Origin: Roseinatronobacter domitianus
GTDB taxonomy: Bacteria > Pseudomonadota > Alphaproteobacteria > Rhodobacterales > Rhodobacteraceae
NCBI RefSeq assembly: GCF_023336755.1
Contig: NZ_JALZWP010000001.1
Location: 265,959-329,958 of the forward strand
Length of the DNA: 64,000 nucleotides
Direction of reading: 5' to 3'
In this document: one piece after another, positions 33,084 through 38,059 of the stretch
Numbering within the stretch: position 1 is the stretch's first letter
How the letters are laid out: each line of letters begins with the position of its first letter
Notes under the pieces: model-generated
Databases searched by the model: none
What the model was told of the DNA's origin: nothing
Seen by the model: only the letters and a program-made list of their open reading frames with translations
Program-made: the position numbers and the translations under genes

Positions 33084-35174
33084 ATGGCCGCGCGGCCCGA
33101 AGTTCTGTTCACCCTGTTCGGCGCATTGGAGGGGCTGGAGGGCGTTGGCCCCAAGACCGCGCGCGCCTTCGAGGGGCTGGATATTACCACCCCGCGCGAC
33201 TTGTTGTTCCACCTGCCGCATGGTGTGATCGACCGACGCAGGCGTAGCACTCTGAAAGGAATGGACTTTCCGGCCATCGCCACGGTCGAGGTTGTGGTGG
33301 GGACGCATAATGCCCCGCGGGTGCGCGGCAGACCTTACCGGGTGTTCGTGCAAGACGCCGAGATGGAATTCCAACTGGTGTTCTTCCATGCGCGGGGCGA
33401 TTACCTGCAAAAACTGCTGCCCACCGGACAGCGGCGGGTTGTGTCGGGCAAGGTCGAACTGTTCGACGGGCTGGCGCAGATGGTGCATCCTGACCATGTG
33501 TTGCGCGCCGATGAGGCCGAGGGTTTGCCGCAATTCGAGCCGACCCATGCGTTGTGTGCCGGTGTCAGCCAAAAGCTGATGGGGCGCGCGATTGCGGGCG
33601 CGCTGGAGCGTGTTCCGACGCTGGCAGAATGGATTGATCCCGCGCTGAAGGCCCAGAAGGGCTGGCCGGATTGGGCAGAGGCGGTGCGCGCCGCGCAGGC
33701 TCCGCAAGGCTTGGCCGATCTGGCGTTAGAAGCTCCGGCGCGGGCGCGGCTGGCCTATGATGAAATCTTCGCGCATCAACTGACGCTGGCATTAGCGCGG
33801 TCGCGCGCTCGGCGGAAACCGGGGCGCGAAACGCGCGGAACCGGGGCGTTGCAAAAGCGGGTTCTGGAAAGCCTGCCTTATGCGCCGACGGGGGCGCAGA
33901 CCCGCGCGCTAAGTGAAATCGCCGCCGATATGGCCAGCCCGCGCCGCATGAACCGGCTGTTGCAGGGCGATGTCGGCGCGGGCAAAACGCTGGTTGCCAT
34001 GCTGGCGCTGTTGATCGCGGTGGAATCTGGCGGGCAGGGCGTGATGATGGCGCCCACGGAAATTCTGGCGCGGCAACATCTGGACAGCCTGACGCCCCTG
34101 GCGCAGGCGGCGGGCGTGCGGCTGGAGTTGCTGACAGGCCGTGACAAGGGGGCGGAGCGTGCGGCCAAAATTGCCGATCTGGCCGAGGGGCGGATTGACA
34201 TTCTTGTGGGCACCCATGCCGTGTTCCAGAAAGGGGTCGATTTCGCTGATCTGCGGCTGGCTGTGGTCGATGAGCAGCACCGCTTTGGCGTCGCGCAACG
34301 CGCGGCGCTTGCGGCCAAGGGCGAGGGGGCCGATGTGCTGGTCATGACCGCAACGCCCATTCCGCGCTCGCTGGCCTTGGCGCAATATGGCGACATGGAT
34401 GTGGCGGTGCTGGATGAAAAGCCACCCGGTCGCAAACCGATCACAACGGCGCTGGTGTCCTCTGCCCGGCTGGACGAGGTCGTGACCAAGCTGCGCCACG
34501 CCATTGCCGAAGGGCGGCAGGCCTATTGGGTCTGCCCGCTGGTCGAAGACAGCGAGGTCAGCACCCTGACCGCAGCTCAAACCCGCTTCGAACATTTGCG
34601 CGCGGCCTTTGGCGAAAGCGTGGTGGGGCTGGTGCATGGCCAGCTTCCACCCGCCGACAAGGACGCCGCAATGACGCGTTTCGCGGCGAATGACACGCAG
34701 CTTCTGGTCGCCACCACGGTCATAGAGGTGGGCGTGAACGTGCCCAACGCGACGATCATGGTAATCGAACGCGCCGAAAGTTTCGGGCTGGCACAGTTGC
34801 ACCAGTTGCGGGGCCGTGTGGGGCGCGGCGCCGACGCCTCGACCTGTTTGCTGATCTACGAGCCGCCCTTGGGCGACACGGCCGCCCGCCGGTTGAAGCT
34901 GTTGCGTGACAGCGAAGACGGCTTTCGCATAGCCGAGGAAGACATGGCCATTCGCGGTGCGGGCGACCTGATCGGCACGGCGCAATCGGGCCTGCCGCGT
35001 TTTCGCGTGGCCGATCTGGAACGACAGGCGGCGTTGATGGCACTGGCGCAATCGGATGCGCGCAAACTGCTGCATGACGACCCCGACCTGACCACCCCGC
35101 GCGGCCAAGCGGCCCGCGTCGCGCTGTGGTTAATGGAGCAGGATAAAGCGATCCAATACCTCTCAATCGGTTAA
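33084..35174 (+). CDS. recG: ATP-dependent DNA helicase RecG
   Basis: 696 aa branched-DNA helicase for fork rescue. An N-terminal wedge/OB domain is followed by Walker A LLQGDVGAGKTLVA (about residue 293), a Walker-B-type VVDEQHRFG (DEQH), motif III MTATPIPRSLAL, and C-terminal motifs QLLVATTVIEVGVNVPNAT and QLHQLRGRVGRG. All helicase motifs are intact. It starts directly after ligA. A striking inverted-repeat region begins within its stop codon (see the 35.17-kb entry). Confidence 0.96.
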   Translation: MAARPEVLFTLFGALEGLEGVGPKTARAFEGLDITTPRDLLFHLPHGVIDRRRRSTLKGMDFPAIATVEVVVGTHNAPRVRGRPYRVFVQDAEMEFQLVFFHARGDYLQKLLPTGQRRVVSGKVELFDGLAQMVHPDHVLRADEAEGLPQFEPTHALCAGVSQKLMGRAIAGALERVPTLAEWIDPALKAQKGWPDWAEAVRAAQAPQGLADLALEAPARARLAYDEIFAHQLTLALARSRARRKPGRETRGTGALQKRVLESLPYAPTGAQTRALSEIAADMASPRRMNRLLQGDVGAGKTLVAMLALLIAVESGGQGVMMAPTEILARQHLDSLTPLAQAAGVRLELLTGRDKGAERAAKIADLAEGRIDILVGTHAVFQKGVDFADLRLAVVDEQHRFGVAQRAALAAKGEGADVLVMTATPIPRSLALAQYGDMDVAVLDEKPPGRKPITTALVSSARLDEVVTKLRHAIAEGRQAYWVCPLVEDSEVSTLTAAQTRFEHLRAAFGESVVGLVHGQLPPADKDAAMTRFAANDTQLLVATTVIEVGVNVPNATIMVIERAESFGLAQLHQLRGRVGRGADASTCLLIYEPPLGDTAARRLKLLRDSEDGFRIAEEDMAIRGAGDLIGTAQSGLPRFRVADLERQAALMALAQSDARKLLHDDPDLTTPRGQAARVALWLMEQDKAIQYLSIG

Positions 35175-35220
35175 TGTTCTAATTTTGTTCTTGACTATAA
35201 GAGGAACAAATGTGAACATT
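35173..35220. promoter_or_regulatory. Nested dyad containing a LexA-type box, upstream of the 37-aa gene
   Basis: Outer arms AATGTTC (35173-35179) and GAACATT (35214-35220), and inner arms TTTGTTC (35184-35190) and GAACAAA (35204-35210), are exact inverted repeats. The left half contains GTTC-N7-GTTC (35176-35190), the alphaproteobacterial LexA/SOS operator; the right half has GAAC-N6-GAAC, one base short. TTGACT and TATAAG between the arms look like promoter elements. No T-run follows, so a terminator function for recG is unlikely. Confidence 0.65.
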
Positions 35221-35246
35221 AGGTTAACAGAGCAAAGGAGGTTGCC

Positions 35247-35360
35247 ATGTCATCGCTGCAAACGAAAGCTGGTCGCGCAATGTTCATACAAGATTTGTGC
35301 GGCGGTCTGTCGCTTGTCGTGCTGGTGGTTTCTGCCTTTCATCTGCCGCTCTTTGCCTGA
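35247..35360 (+). CDS. 37-aa predicted single-pass membrane microprotein, possibly SOS-regulated
   Basis: A 37-codon frame starting at an ATG with a near-perfect Shine-Dalgarno (AAAGGAGG, 5 nt spacing). A polar N-terminus (MSSLQTKAGRAMFIQDL) precedes one hydrophobic segment (SLVVLVVSAFHLPLFA) that reaches the C-terminus. It lies between a LexA-like operator region and a strong Rho-independent terminator, so it looks like a complete monocistronic unit. No family is recognised. The layout recalls SOS-induced division inhibitors such as the 29-aa SidA of Caulobacter, but no sequence similarity is claimed. Confidence 0.7.
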   Translation: MSSLQTKAGRAMFIQDLCGGLSLVVLVVSAFHLPLFA

Positions 35361-35409
35361 GCTTTTGACACTGCTTGCGGGCATGTCCGCCCGCGCCTGA
35401 CCTGACTGT

Positions 35410-35447
35410 CGCCGCCATGCACCCCCATGCATGCGCGGCGTTTTTTT
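35410..35447 (+). terminator. Rho-independent terminator
   Basis: CGCCGCCATGCA and TGCATGCGCGGCG pair over 12 bp with a single bulged C and the loop CCCCCA, directly followed by seven T. It ends the 37-aa transcription unit and separates it from trmFO, whose start is 64 bp downstream. Confidence 0.9.
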
Positions 35448-35510: not shown

Positions 35511-36866
35511 ATGGACAAGGTTCTGAACATCGTGGGCGGCGGCATGGCAGGCGCAGAGGCTGCGTGGCAGGCCGCCAATATGGGCGTGGACGTGATTATC
35601 CATGAAATGCGCCCGGATGTCGGCACATTCGCGCACCAAACCCAGCATCTGGCGGAAATGGTCTGTTCCAATTCCTTCCGCTCGGATGATGATGAGAACA
35701 ACGCCGTCGGCCTGCTGCATTGGGAAATGCGCGCGGCAGGCGGGCTGATTATGGAAATGGCCGATGCCCATGCGCTGCCTGCGGGCGGTGCGCTGGCGGT
35801 GGATCGCGACGCCTTTGCAGAGGCCGTGACCGCACGACTGCTGGCGCATCCACGTATTCGTGTGCAGCGCGGCGAAGTGAGCGCGCTGCCGGATCAGGGT
35901 CAGTGGATCTTCGCGACGGGGCCGCTGACATCAAGCGCTTTGGGGCAGGCCATTGCAGCCGAAACCGGCGCAGAGGCCCTGGCCTTTTTCGACGCCATCG
36001 CGCCGATTGTGTATTTCGACAGTATCGACATGTCGAAAGCCTGGTTCCAGTCGCGCTACGACAAGGGAGAGACCGAAGAACAGCGCACGGCCTATCTGAA
36101 CTGCCCGATGGACCGCGAGCAGTATGAGGCTTTCATCGACGCGCTTTTGGCTGCCGAAAAAACCGAATTCCACGAGGGTGAAACAGCGGGCTATTTCGAC
36201 GGCTGCCTACCGATAGAGGTGATGTCAGAGCGCGGGCGCGAAACCCTGCGACATGGCCCCATGAAGCCTGTCGGACTGACCAATCCGCATGCGCCCGATG
36301 TCAAACCTTATGCCGTGGTGCAGTTGCGCCGCGACAATGCCTTGGGCACGCTGTATAACATCGTCGGCTTTCAAACCAAGATGAAGTATGGCGCACAAAG
36401 CACTGTTTTTAAAACAATACCGGGGCTTGAAAATGCCTCCTTTGCGCGCCTTGGCGGCATTCACCGCAACACGTTCCTGAATTCGCCCACCTTGCTGGAC
36501 GACCAGTTGCGCTTGCGCAAACGTCCCAATTTGCGCTTTGCGGGCCAGATCACCGGGGTCGAAGGCTATGTCGAATCCGCGGCCATGGGCTTGCTGGCAG
36601 GCCGGATGGCAGCGGCGGAACTGTTGGGCGCGCATGTGCCCGCACCGTCGGGTGACACGGCCATGGGGGCGCTGGTCCATCACATTACTGGCGGTGCCGA
36701 AGCCAAAACCTTTCAGCCCATGAATGTGAATTTTGGCCTGTTCCCACCCATTGACGCGCGTGGCGGACGGCGCGGACGGCGTGAGCGCTACAAGGCCTAT
36801 ACAGACCGCGCAAAATCCAGTTTCCAAGAGTGGCTGGCCGCGCAGGCGCGCCCTGATGCCGCCTGA
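35511..36866 (+). CDS. trmFO: Methylenetetrahydrofolate--tRNA-(uracil-5-)-methyltransferase
   Basis: Folate/FAD-dependent enzyme that makes 5-methyluridine at position 54 of tRNA. 451 aa. The FAD-binding [18 protein letters not shown] begins at residue 4, followed by VIIHEMRP and the family motifs [27 protein letters not shown]-like (here [11 protein letters not shown]), [15 protein letters not shown] and FGLFPPID near the end. The ATG at 35511 has AGGAAAGGG upstream; the open frame extends further but that part crosses the terminator. It overlaps gluQ by 11 nt. Confidence 0.95.
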
Positions 36867-37719
36867 GGGCGCGGTTACGCGCTTTGCGCCGTCGCCCACC
36901 GGGCCGCTGCATCTGGGCCATGCCTATGCGGCGTTTGTCGCAGCCGAGCGTGCCGGGCCGCAGGGGCGGTTTTTGCTGCGAATTGAAGATATTGACCGCG
37001 AAAGATGCCGTGAAAGTTACGTTCGGGCAATCCTTGATGACCTGACATGGCTGGGCCTGGAATGGCATGGGCCGATCTGGCGGCAGTCCGACCATCTGGG
37101 CAGCCACCGCAAGGCGCTTAAAAAACTTGCAGCGCAAGGGCTTATCTATCCCTGTAAATGTTCGCGGGGCGATATTCGCGCGGCCCTTTCCGCCCCACAA
37201 GAGGGCGCGCCTGTGATCGGCCCTGACGGGTTTGTCTATCCGGGTGCCTGCCGGGGCCGCAGCATGCTCGACGCGGGATCGCAGGACGCGCTGCGGCTTG
37301 ATATGCGCAAGGCGCTGTCCCGGATCGGTCCCCTTGCCTTTCAGGAAAACGGGCCGTTGCATCCCGACCAGCATCGGCTCGACCCGGACTGGATGATCGC
37401 GCATGTGGGGGATGTGGTGCTGTCACGCCGCGACATGGGCACCAGCTATCACCTGTCGGTCGTGCTGGATGACGCCGCACAAGCTATTACCGAGGTGACG
37501 CGCGGTGTCGACCTGTTCGATGCCACCATGATCCATGTTTTGCTTCAGTCTTTGCTAGAACTTCCGCCTGTAACATATTGGCATCATGATCTTATTCGTG
37601 ATGAAGATGGCAAAAGGCTGGCCAAGCGCGACGATGCCCGCGCGCTGGCCACCCTGCGCGCCGATGGGGCGACACCCTCTGATATCCGGCTTAGCCTGGG
37701 CCTGCCATCGGGCGCATAA
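36856..37719 (+). CDS. gluQ: Glutamyl-Q tRNA(Asp) synthetase
   Basis: Charges glutamate onto the queuosine base of tRNA-Asp. 287 aa, a GluRS catalytic core without the anticodon-binding domain. The HIGH-type motif is [18 protein letters not shown] (HLGH), the zinc-binding motif [10 protein letters not shown] with a downstream YPGACRGR, and the KMSKS-like motif KRLAKRDDA. These fit YadB/GluQ. The ATG at 36856 overlaps the trmFO end. The C-terminal end overlaps the convergent hisI by 29 nt. Confidence 0.93.
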
Positions 37720-38059
37720 TCTCGACCTCGGCCCCATCGCGCAGCGCGGTGTAAAAGCATGACCGCCGGTTGGTATGGCAGGCCGGCCCGGTCTGGCGCA
37801 CCAGAACCAGCAGGCAGTCGCGGTCGCAATCGACCCGCACCTCGACCAATTCCTGAACATGGCCCGAACTTTCGCCTTTCACCCAGAACGCTTGGCGCGA
37901 GCGCGACCAATAGGTCACGCGACCGCTCTGCAAAGTGCGCGCCACAGCGTCAGCATTCATCCACGCCATCATCAGCACATCGCCGTTATCGGCATCCTGT
38001 GCGATGGCAGGGATCAGCCCCTTGTCGTCAAATCGTAGGGTTTGCGGATCGAAATTCAT
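37691..38059 (-). CDS. hisI: Phosphoribosyl-AMP cyclohydrolase
   Basis: Third step of histidine synthesis, ring opening of PR-AMP. 122 aa, the monofunctional alphaproteobacterial form without a HisE domain. PAIAQDADNGDVLMMAWMNADAV at the N-terminus, WSRSRQAFWVKGESSGH, and the metal-binding VDCDRDCLLVLVRQTGPACHTNRRSCFY are complete (quoted in part: GPACHTNRRSCFY). It converges on gluQ, sharing 29 bp of coding sequence on opposite strands. Other his genes in the window are hisH and hisB at 52 kb; there is no contiguous his operon here. Confidence 0.95.
   Translation of the reverse strand: MNFDPQTLRFDDKGLIPAIAQDADNGDVLMMAWMNADAVARTLQSGRVTYWSRSRQAFWVKGESSGHVQELVEVRVDCDRDCLLVLVRQTGPACHTNRRSCFYTALRDGAEVEIMRPMAGPG

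Follow-up and report, generated by a model that had tools for sequence, protein, structure and literature searches.

Between the recG and trmFO genes of Roseinatronobacter domitianus (Alphaproteobacteria; Rhodobacteraceae) lies a compact predicted transcription unit, in which a LexA-type operator, GTTC-N7-GTTC, precedes a 37-codon frame for a predicted membrane microprotein that is followed by its own intrinsic terminator. The DNA analyzed is a 64,000-nucleotide (nt) stretch of contig NZ_JALZWP010000001.1, hereinafter the window, within which all positions are given. We found this unit to be present in nearly the whole family Rhodobacteraceae. The comparative sequence evidence gives good support to LexA control of a single-pass membrane microprotein, and we assign a probability of about 0.5 to the further reading that the microprotein holds septum synthesis after DNA damage by acting on the divisome. 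An initial annotation of the window had read this interval as an SOS-regulated microprotein gene, perhaps for a division inhibitor comparable in role to SidA of Caulobacter. All the elements it named, namely the arms of a nested dyad, the GTTC-N7-GTTC, a Shine-Dalgarno sequence, the 37-codon frame, and the terminator, were found in their places, and its combination of SOS-type operator, short membrane-protein frame, and dedicated terminator is borne out, the operator and frame having even moved together in two genomes (see below).

GTTC-N7-GTTC was found twice in the window against 1.13 occurrences expected; because the repeat alone is not rare in 64 kb, the case rests on its conservation. The second copy (37855-37869, minus strand) lies inside an open frame of the same strand (37691-38059) and looks like a chance occurrence. 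Eighty loci were chosen by RecG alone, using a scan of genome contigs with a RecG alignment (the best 80 of 574 relatives, a sample that leans toward RecGs like that of the query). They include members of Yoonia, Roseovarius, Ruegeria, Thioclava, Rhodovulum, Litoreibacter, Limimaricola, and Mameliella, and the closest named relative among the matches listed is Roseibaca ekhonensis (RecG identity 92%). Rhodovulum robiginosum (L163), Thioclava sediminum (L150), and a Ruegeria sp. (L211) are among the carriers of the unit. As tblastn searches with the window recG also indicated, recG adjoins the microprotein gene in relatives: a hidden Markov model built from our alignment A2, some rows of which come from genomes also in this sample, recovered the frame within 500 nt downstream of recG in 78 of the 80 loci. 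The GTTC-N7-GTTC box was present on the coding strand within about 250 nt after recG in 76 of them, as compared to 4 of 1718 other 260-nt segments of the same loci. Of the four box-less loci, one has N6 spacing (L135), one has a changed half-site (L184), and in the other two, which are also those whose frame was not recovered within 500 nt, the unit is displaced with its full promoter kept: in Frigidibacter albus (L139) it lies ~0.6 kb after recG, and in Roseovarius aestuarii (L209) at a site without recG in 3.1 kb. Promoter and frame have relocated jointly away from recG in Roseovarius aestuarii (L283) and in the genome G553 (L284); the unit is therefore independent of recG. Among 148 further loci, overlapping in part by genome and picked by protein match rather than by the box, the motif occurs within 150 nt before the frame in 147 (in L006 and L007, the first two GTTC are 6 nt apart, and the N7 spacing counted there is that of a pair one half-site along). 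The upstream operator is thus conserved along with the frame, as the initial annotation had envisaged.

Sequence searches with increasingly broad queries traced the frame across the family. A single-protein search matched 36 of 60 genomes at E ≤ 1 (its own included), 34 of these within the genus, while a profile of 24 rows (A1) matched 35 of 37 genomes of the genus (window's own included) and, in a sample of 394 genomes from across the family, 171. Profile A2 (30 rows with family members; loci L039, L046, L054, and L055 left out) matched 269 of 292 good genomes, own included, and 108 of 112 genera; these genomes were drawn from the order, with all the listed ones in Rhodobacteraceae, and some supplied rows to A2. 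For 20 of the 23 genomes missed by A2, recG was located and the DNA downstream of it read, with the remaining three left out. Seventeen of the 20 possess, behind recG, a GTTC-N7-GTTC box and then a divergent short frame with the Asp-x-x-Gly signature and hydrophobic layout, as judged by eye. Of the others, L121 (G619) has the box after recG but no such frame, and L105 (G227) and L112 (G553) have neither after recG. A broader profile that contains near relatives of the divergent form (A4) recovered the G553 frame at another place (E 2.5e-7). At L121, the promoter motif is still in place, as is a hairpin with a T-run (the hairpin read by eye), but no frame was recognized between the two; the frame has apparently been lost from behind its promoter. 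The two misses within the genus are incomplete genomes (71% and 82%): in G035, recG runs off its contig and A4 gives only weak matches (E 0.057 and 0.61); in G029, neither a close recG match nor an A4 match was found. Eight genomes (G106, G177, G246, G499, G520, G565, G584, and G604) have two A2 matches each, possibly second copies.

For a comparison of promoters, 76 of them were aligned on the box (where several boxes occur, the one preceding a -35-like word was taken). TT(T/G)AC directly follows the second GTTC (92-100% per column), with the T right after the box in 76/76 promoters and the A and C of TTxAC in 70 and 71, respectively. GAACAA begins after 23 nt from the box (96-100% per column) and is followed by GCAACA (87-100%). 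The -35-like word and the GAACAA at the -10 place, therefore, both stand at a fixed distance from the box. This -10-like element has no T at -7, as is the case for most alphaproteobacterial promoters analyzed (PMC8407463). Most of the 76 promoters have a third GTTC 6 nt upstream of the box (84-95% per column), which is absent in the window, where the recG end lies; in the family promoters (loci L133-L212), the third GTTC, the box, and the -10 GAACAA could make up a four-half-site layout. The nested dyad of the initial annotation is indeed present in the window (inner arms TTTGTTC, 35184-35190, and GAACAAA, 35204-35210) but is not what the family conserves: family-wide, this is the direct repeat together with the GAAC at the -10 position, and the inner arm GAACAAA recurs only in some close relatives. 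The predicted leaders are 19-37 nt long and, with 24 nt of coding sequence, fold weaker than -8 kcal/mol in 60 of 70 relatives (-7.1 kcal/mol for the window leader plus first codons). At the other end of the unit, 68 of 70 relatives have a terminator-like hairpin no more than 260 nt past the frame, as against 6 of 709 control segments. The window hairpin folds at -20.6 kcal/mol (z -4.4; 0/200 shuffles as good); a simple terminator scan passed over the stem, in which one base bulges out, and returned only a weaker site inside the frame.

In the same genome, the motif also occurs, in its other-strand form GAAC-N7-GAAC, before lexA and recA. For recA, we took ATGGCT as the start, presuming the usual RecA N-terminus, because the first ATG of its frame lies inside the box. 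The same repeat is the published LexA box of Caulobacter (PMC12700426), and LexA sites in both GTTC and GAAC forms have been predicted in Dinoroseobacter, in a study in whose main text the terms recG and trmFO do not appear (PMC6473078). From the motif, its position beside the -35 element, and its recurrence ahead of lexA and recA, we strongly infer that LexA represses the microprotein gene and that damage induces it. Also in this genome (G000), on contig C23, a gene matching the C-terminal part of the LexA profile (L097) has a GTTC-N7-GTTC ~1.5 kb upstream within the same locus.

The frame evolves as a protein-coding sequence. Pooled over 41 pairs in five groups of genus members, the ratio of nonsynonymous to synonymous differences (pN/pS) is 0.24 in frame as opposed to 1.14 and 2.94 in the shifted frames, the pairs sharing sequences and hence not being independent. 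Conservation with mostly synonymous change, which the initial annotation had singled out as its test, is thus what the comparison returned, and this substitution pattern shows selection at the protein level. Protein statistics were drawn from 72 of the 78 matched RecG-picked loci, six being dropped as their start could not be placed. The length is 40 residues in 60 of the 72 and ranges from 31 to 49 residues across the members seen. An Asp (71/72), a Gly three residues after it (70/72), a Leu (71/72), and a Pro (66/72) stay in place across the family while most other residues vary, and divergent rows of genus g48 in A4 keep the Asp, Gly, and Pro. All 72 members measured reach a best 19-residue hydropathy of at least 1.78; the N-terminal part has a net charge of 0 to +3 in 68, and in 71 the eight C-terminal residues are without net charge. 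AlphaFold2 modeled the window protein as one helix spanning residues 5-36 (mean predicted local distance difference test score, pLDDT, 81; predicted template modeling score, pTM, 0.40). These features point to a single-pass inner-membrane protein with its N-terminus probably inside, both location and topology being predictions.

By sequence comparison, this microprotein is a new lineage-specific family within a known kind, the SOS-controlled membrane microproteins. No curated family fits it: 30 members searched against Pfam, NCBIfam, PHROGs, and PADLOC at E ≤ 0.1 gave stray matches only (best E 0.024-0.036), of which those to Pfam HTH_11 (E 0.027; 2/30 members) and HTH_23 (E 0.024; 1/30) and one to a PHROG (E 0.036; one member) were rejected as chance. 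There was likewise no match among Protein Data Bank chains at E ≤ 1. In some genomes, the gene may well already carry a hypothetical-protein annotation. Across the class, A2 gave two marginal matches besides four in Rhodobacteraceae (289 genomes), and A4 gave 16 at E 0.0035-0.043 besides five in Rhodobacteraceae (385 genomes). With ~19 matches expected by chance at E ≤ 0.05, we rejected the 16 as homologs outside the family. A query with one member (from L188) matched no plasmid or phage at E ≤ 1, the 40 residues of the query limiting sensitivity and viral contigs not being part of the search; a mobile or phage origin was rejected on this ground. The window genome has no match to the SulA family (PF03846), and hence, as far as tested, the post of SOS division inhibitor is vacant in it. 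Among the open-licence papers listed, no title or abstract opening describes this gene or an SOS division inhibitor of Rhodobacteraceae.

Taken together, we propose the following mechanism. The microprotein gene would be a free-standing, LexA-repressed gene, with LexA on the GTTC-N7-GTTC against the -35 element keeping the promoter shut. RecA on damaged DNA would trigger LexA self-cleavage and thereby allow synthesis of a short mRNA of ~220 nt, which would end at the hairpin and be translated from a strong ribosome site. The product would be a single-pass inner-membrane protein, mostly of ~40 residues, with a short, usually positive N-terminus probably inside, a helix starting from the near-invariant Asp-x-x-Gly, and a short uncharged Leu-Pro tail outside. 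It would most likely bind to one of the divisome's membrane proteins, the first candidates being FtsW and the FtsW partners FtsI and FtsN, and septum synthesis would be held until repair is done and LexA re-forms. This last step is drawn by analogy with SidA, YneA, and SosA: late division is the stage at which small damage-induced membrane proteins work in Caulobacter, Bacillus, Staphylococcus, and Mycobacterium, and DidA, which is not SOS-controlled, binds FtsN (PMC4211646, PMC13396833). FtsW is the reported route of YneA action, and ChiZ, SosA, and SidA have also been modeled on FtsW, albeit with low confidence (PMC13396833). By the same analogy, the SidA-like inhibitor role raised in the initial annotation is reasonable and plausible, at about even odds. 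A still wider proposal is that Rhodobacteraceae possess a family-wide DNA-damage division checkpoint made of a lineage-specific microprotein, vertically inherited in nearly all members, which has in most of them an unusually elaborate operator (GTTC-N6-GTTC-N7-GTTC running up to the -35, and a near-invariant -10 GAAC), has next to no outer domain, and targets the septal cell-wall synthase; this we advance tentatively, as falling somewhat short of an even chance.

Several observations weigh against the division-inhibitor reading or the LexA control that it presupposes. The genomes G227 and G619 apparently have no frame, even with A4. No expression, LexA-binding, or phenotype data for the gene were found in the literature consulted. 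The regulon of the window genome was checked at three promoters only (lexA, recA, and uvrA), and the last of these, an SOS gene in many bacteria, has no GTTC-N7-GTTC before it, with one lone GAAC in 260 nt. The protein sequence hints at no partner, FtsW or other, beyond the conserved Asp-Gly and Leu-Pro. Further, a helix-face period of 95-107 degrees was not significant in permutation tests (p=0.25 for columns 28-46, 0.21 when the end residues are dropped, and 0.06 for columns 24-46), and for this reason we do not claim one conserved binding face on the membrane helix.

The alternatives to a divisome-directed inhibitor differ chiefly in what the protein would do. One of them, an unlikely one, is that the microprotein is an SOS-induced regulator of another membrane machine, be it a sensor kinase, a transporter, a membrane protease, or the machinery for DNA uptake or gene transfer agents. 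Binding to complexes of this sort is common among bacterial membrane microproteins. Moreover, the SOS response of Rhodobacteraceae has been tied to gene transfer agents, competence, and CtrA control (PMC6473078). Against this, no linkage to a gene of such a machine was noticed (neighbors other than recG were not surveyed); recG is the neighbor in common, and the unit can leave it. The main rival, which we also regard as improbable, is a depolarizing peptide that, like TisB or DinQ, would lower membrane potential and ATP and slow the cell during repair, with no protein target. The size, single helix, and LexA-type control of the microprotein do recall TisB (29 residues) and DinQ (27 residues) (PMC8309996, PMC3567139); however, nearly all of the family has its gene on the chromosome and at the same site, with no plasmid or phage match (one member), unlike a mobile toxin. 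Its short predicted leaders, weakly folded in the majority of relatives, also differ from the structured tisB leader, and the single conserved charge of its predicted helix, placed at the start, along with the uncharged tails noted above, differs from the charge stripe of TisB.

Two further explanations concern the unit itself. The GTTC repeats could serve another regulator, or the promoter could be active without damage, making the product a housekeeping membrane microprotein. What speaks for this is that the evidence for LexA is the motif, which is missing before uvrA; yet a direct repeat identical in its half-sites and 7-base spacing is found ahead of lexA and recA and equals the Caulobacter box, and the near-invariant -35-like bases abutting it further argue against this explanation, which we hold to be very unlikely. 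That the transcript acts as an RNA with an incidental reading frame, as the strong promoter and terminator and the frame-less G619 unit might suggest, deserves hardly any credence given the protein-type substitution pattern and the retention of the Asp, Gly, Leu, and Pro while most residues vary.

Known systems of a similar kind share some features with the proposed divisome-directed microprotein and differ from it in others. SidA, the 29-residue SOS-induced division inhibitor of Caulobacter crescentus, shares the box type, LexA control, and a tiny inner-membrane product (PMC4211646, PMC12700426). Division inhibition has been shown for SidA, removal of which lessens the filamentation of lexA-null Caulobacter (PMC12700426), whereas here it is proposed by analogy; in the rest of the class, neither A2 nor A4 matched anything beyond the level of chance, and SidA was compared by description rather than by alignment. 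YneA (Bacillus), SosA (Staphylococcus), and ChiZ (Mycobacterium) likewise combine damage control with one membrane helix and a late-division target, the last being, for the microprotein, again an analogy. However, a LysM domain is present in both YneA and ChiZ, and SosA depends for its effect on an extended region, whereas the outer tail of the microprotein would have just a few residues (PMC13396833). TisB and DinQ, type I toxins of Escherichia coli, are LexA-controlled hydrophobic peptides of ~30 residues. They have antisense RNAs and processed mRNAs (PMC8309996, PMC3567139), and tisB has a structured leader, in contrast to which the leaders predicted here are short and weakly folded. The features of the window unit and its neighbors are collected in Table 1; among these, trmFO is the downstream neighbor in the window's genus. 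A trmFO match was seen in 37 of the 80 RecG-picked loci, many matches being cut by the locus end, and in 33 of these 37 trmFO is convergent and farther off (~2 kb after recG).

Table 1. The predicted LexA-controlled microprotein unit and its flanking genes (positions within the 64,000-nt window).
Feature	Position	Strand	Basis and remarks
recG, 696 codons	33084..35174	+	Open reading frame list; upstream neighbor, stop codon overlaps operator region
Outer dyad, AATGTTC (35173-35179) / GAACATT (35214-35220)	35173..35220	.	Sequence; conserved only in parts
LexA-type operator GTTC-N7-GTTC (GTTCTAATTTTGTTC)	35176..35190	+	Motif and conservation in relatives
Predicted -35 element TTGACT	35191..35196	+	Aligned promoters; abuts second GTTC
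Predicted -10 region GAACAT	35214..35219	+	Aligned promoters; 17-nt spacer, holds near-invariant GAAC (35214-35217)
Predicted short 5' leader, ~21 nt	35226..35246	+	Position relative to predicted -10
Shine-Dalgarno AAAGGAGG	35234..35241	+	Sequence; 5 nt before ATG at 35247
37-codon microprotein gene MSSLQTKAGRAMFIQDLCGGLSLVVLVVSAFHLPLFA, including stop	35247..35360	+	Open reading frame list, homologs, pN/pS, one predicted helix
Intrinsic terminator, stem (35410-35440) and seven T (35441-35447)	35410..35447	+	RNA fold
trmFO	35511..36866	+	Open reading frame list; tblastn in relatives

The family Rhodobacteraceae, a group of widespread aquatic bacteria, serves as the model for gene transfer agents. 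SulA, a soluble protein of larger size, inhibits FtsZ, and its role as SOS division inhibitor would be the same as that proposed for the microprotein, which is a good candidate for the missing post-damage division brake of the family. A gene of ~40 codons that is near universal in one family, at one place and with its own LexA-type switch, would offer a direct handle on how these bacteria control division after damage, and it illustrates that conservation does not guarantee a gene a place in the curated protein libraries scanned. If FtsW is its target, few natural inhibitors of septal wall synthesis would be smaller than the microprotein.

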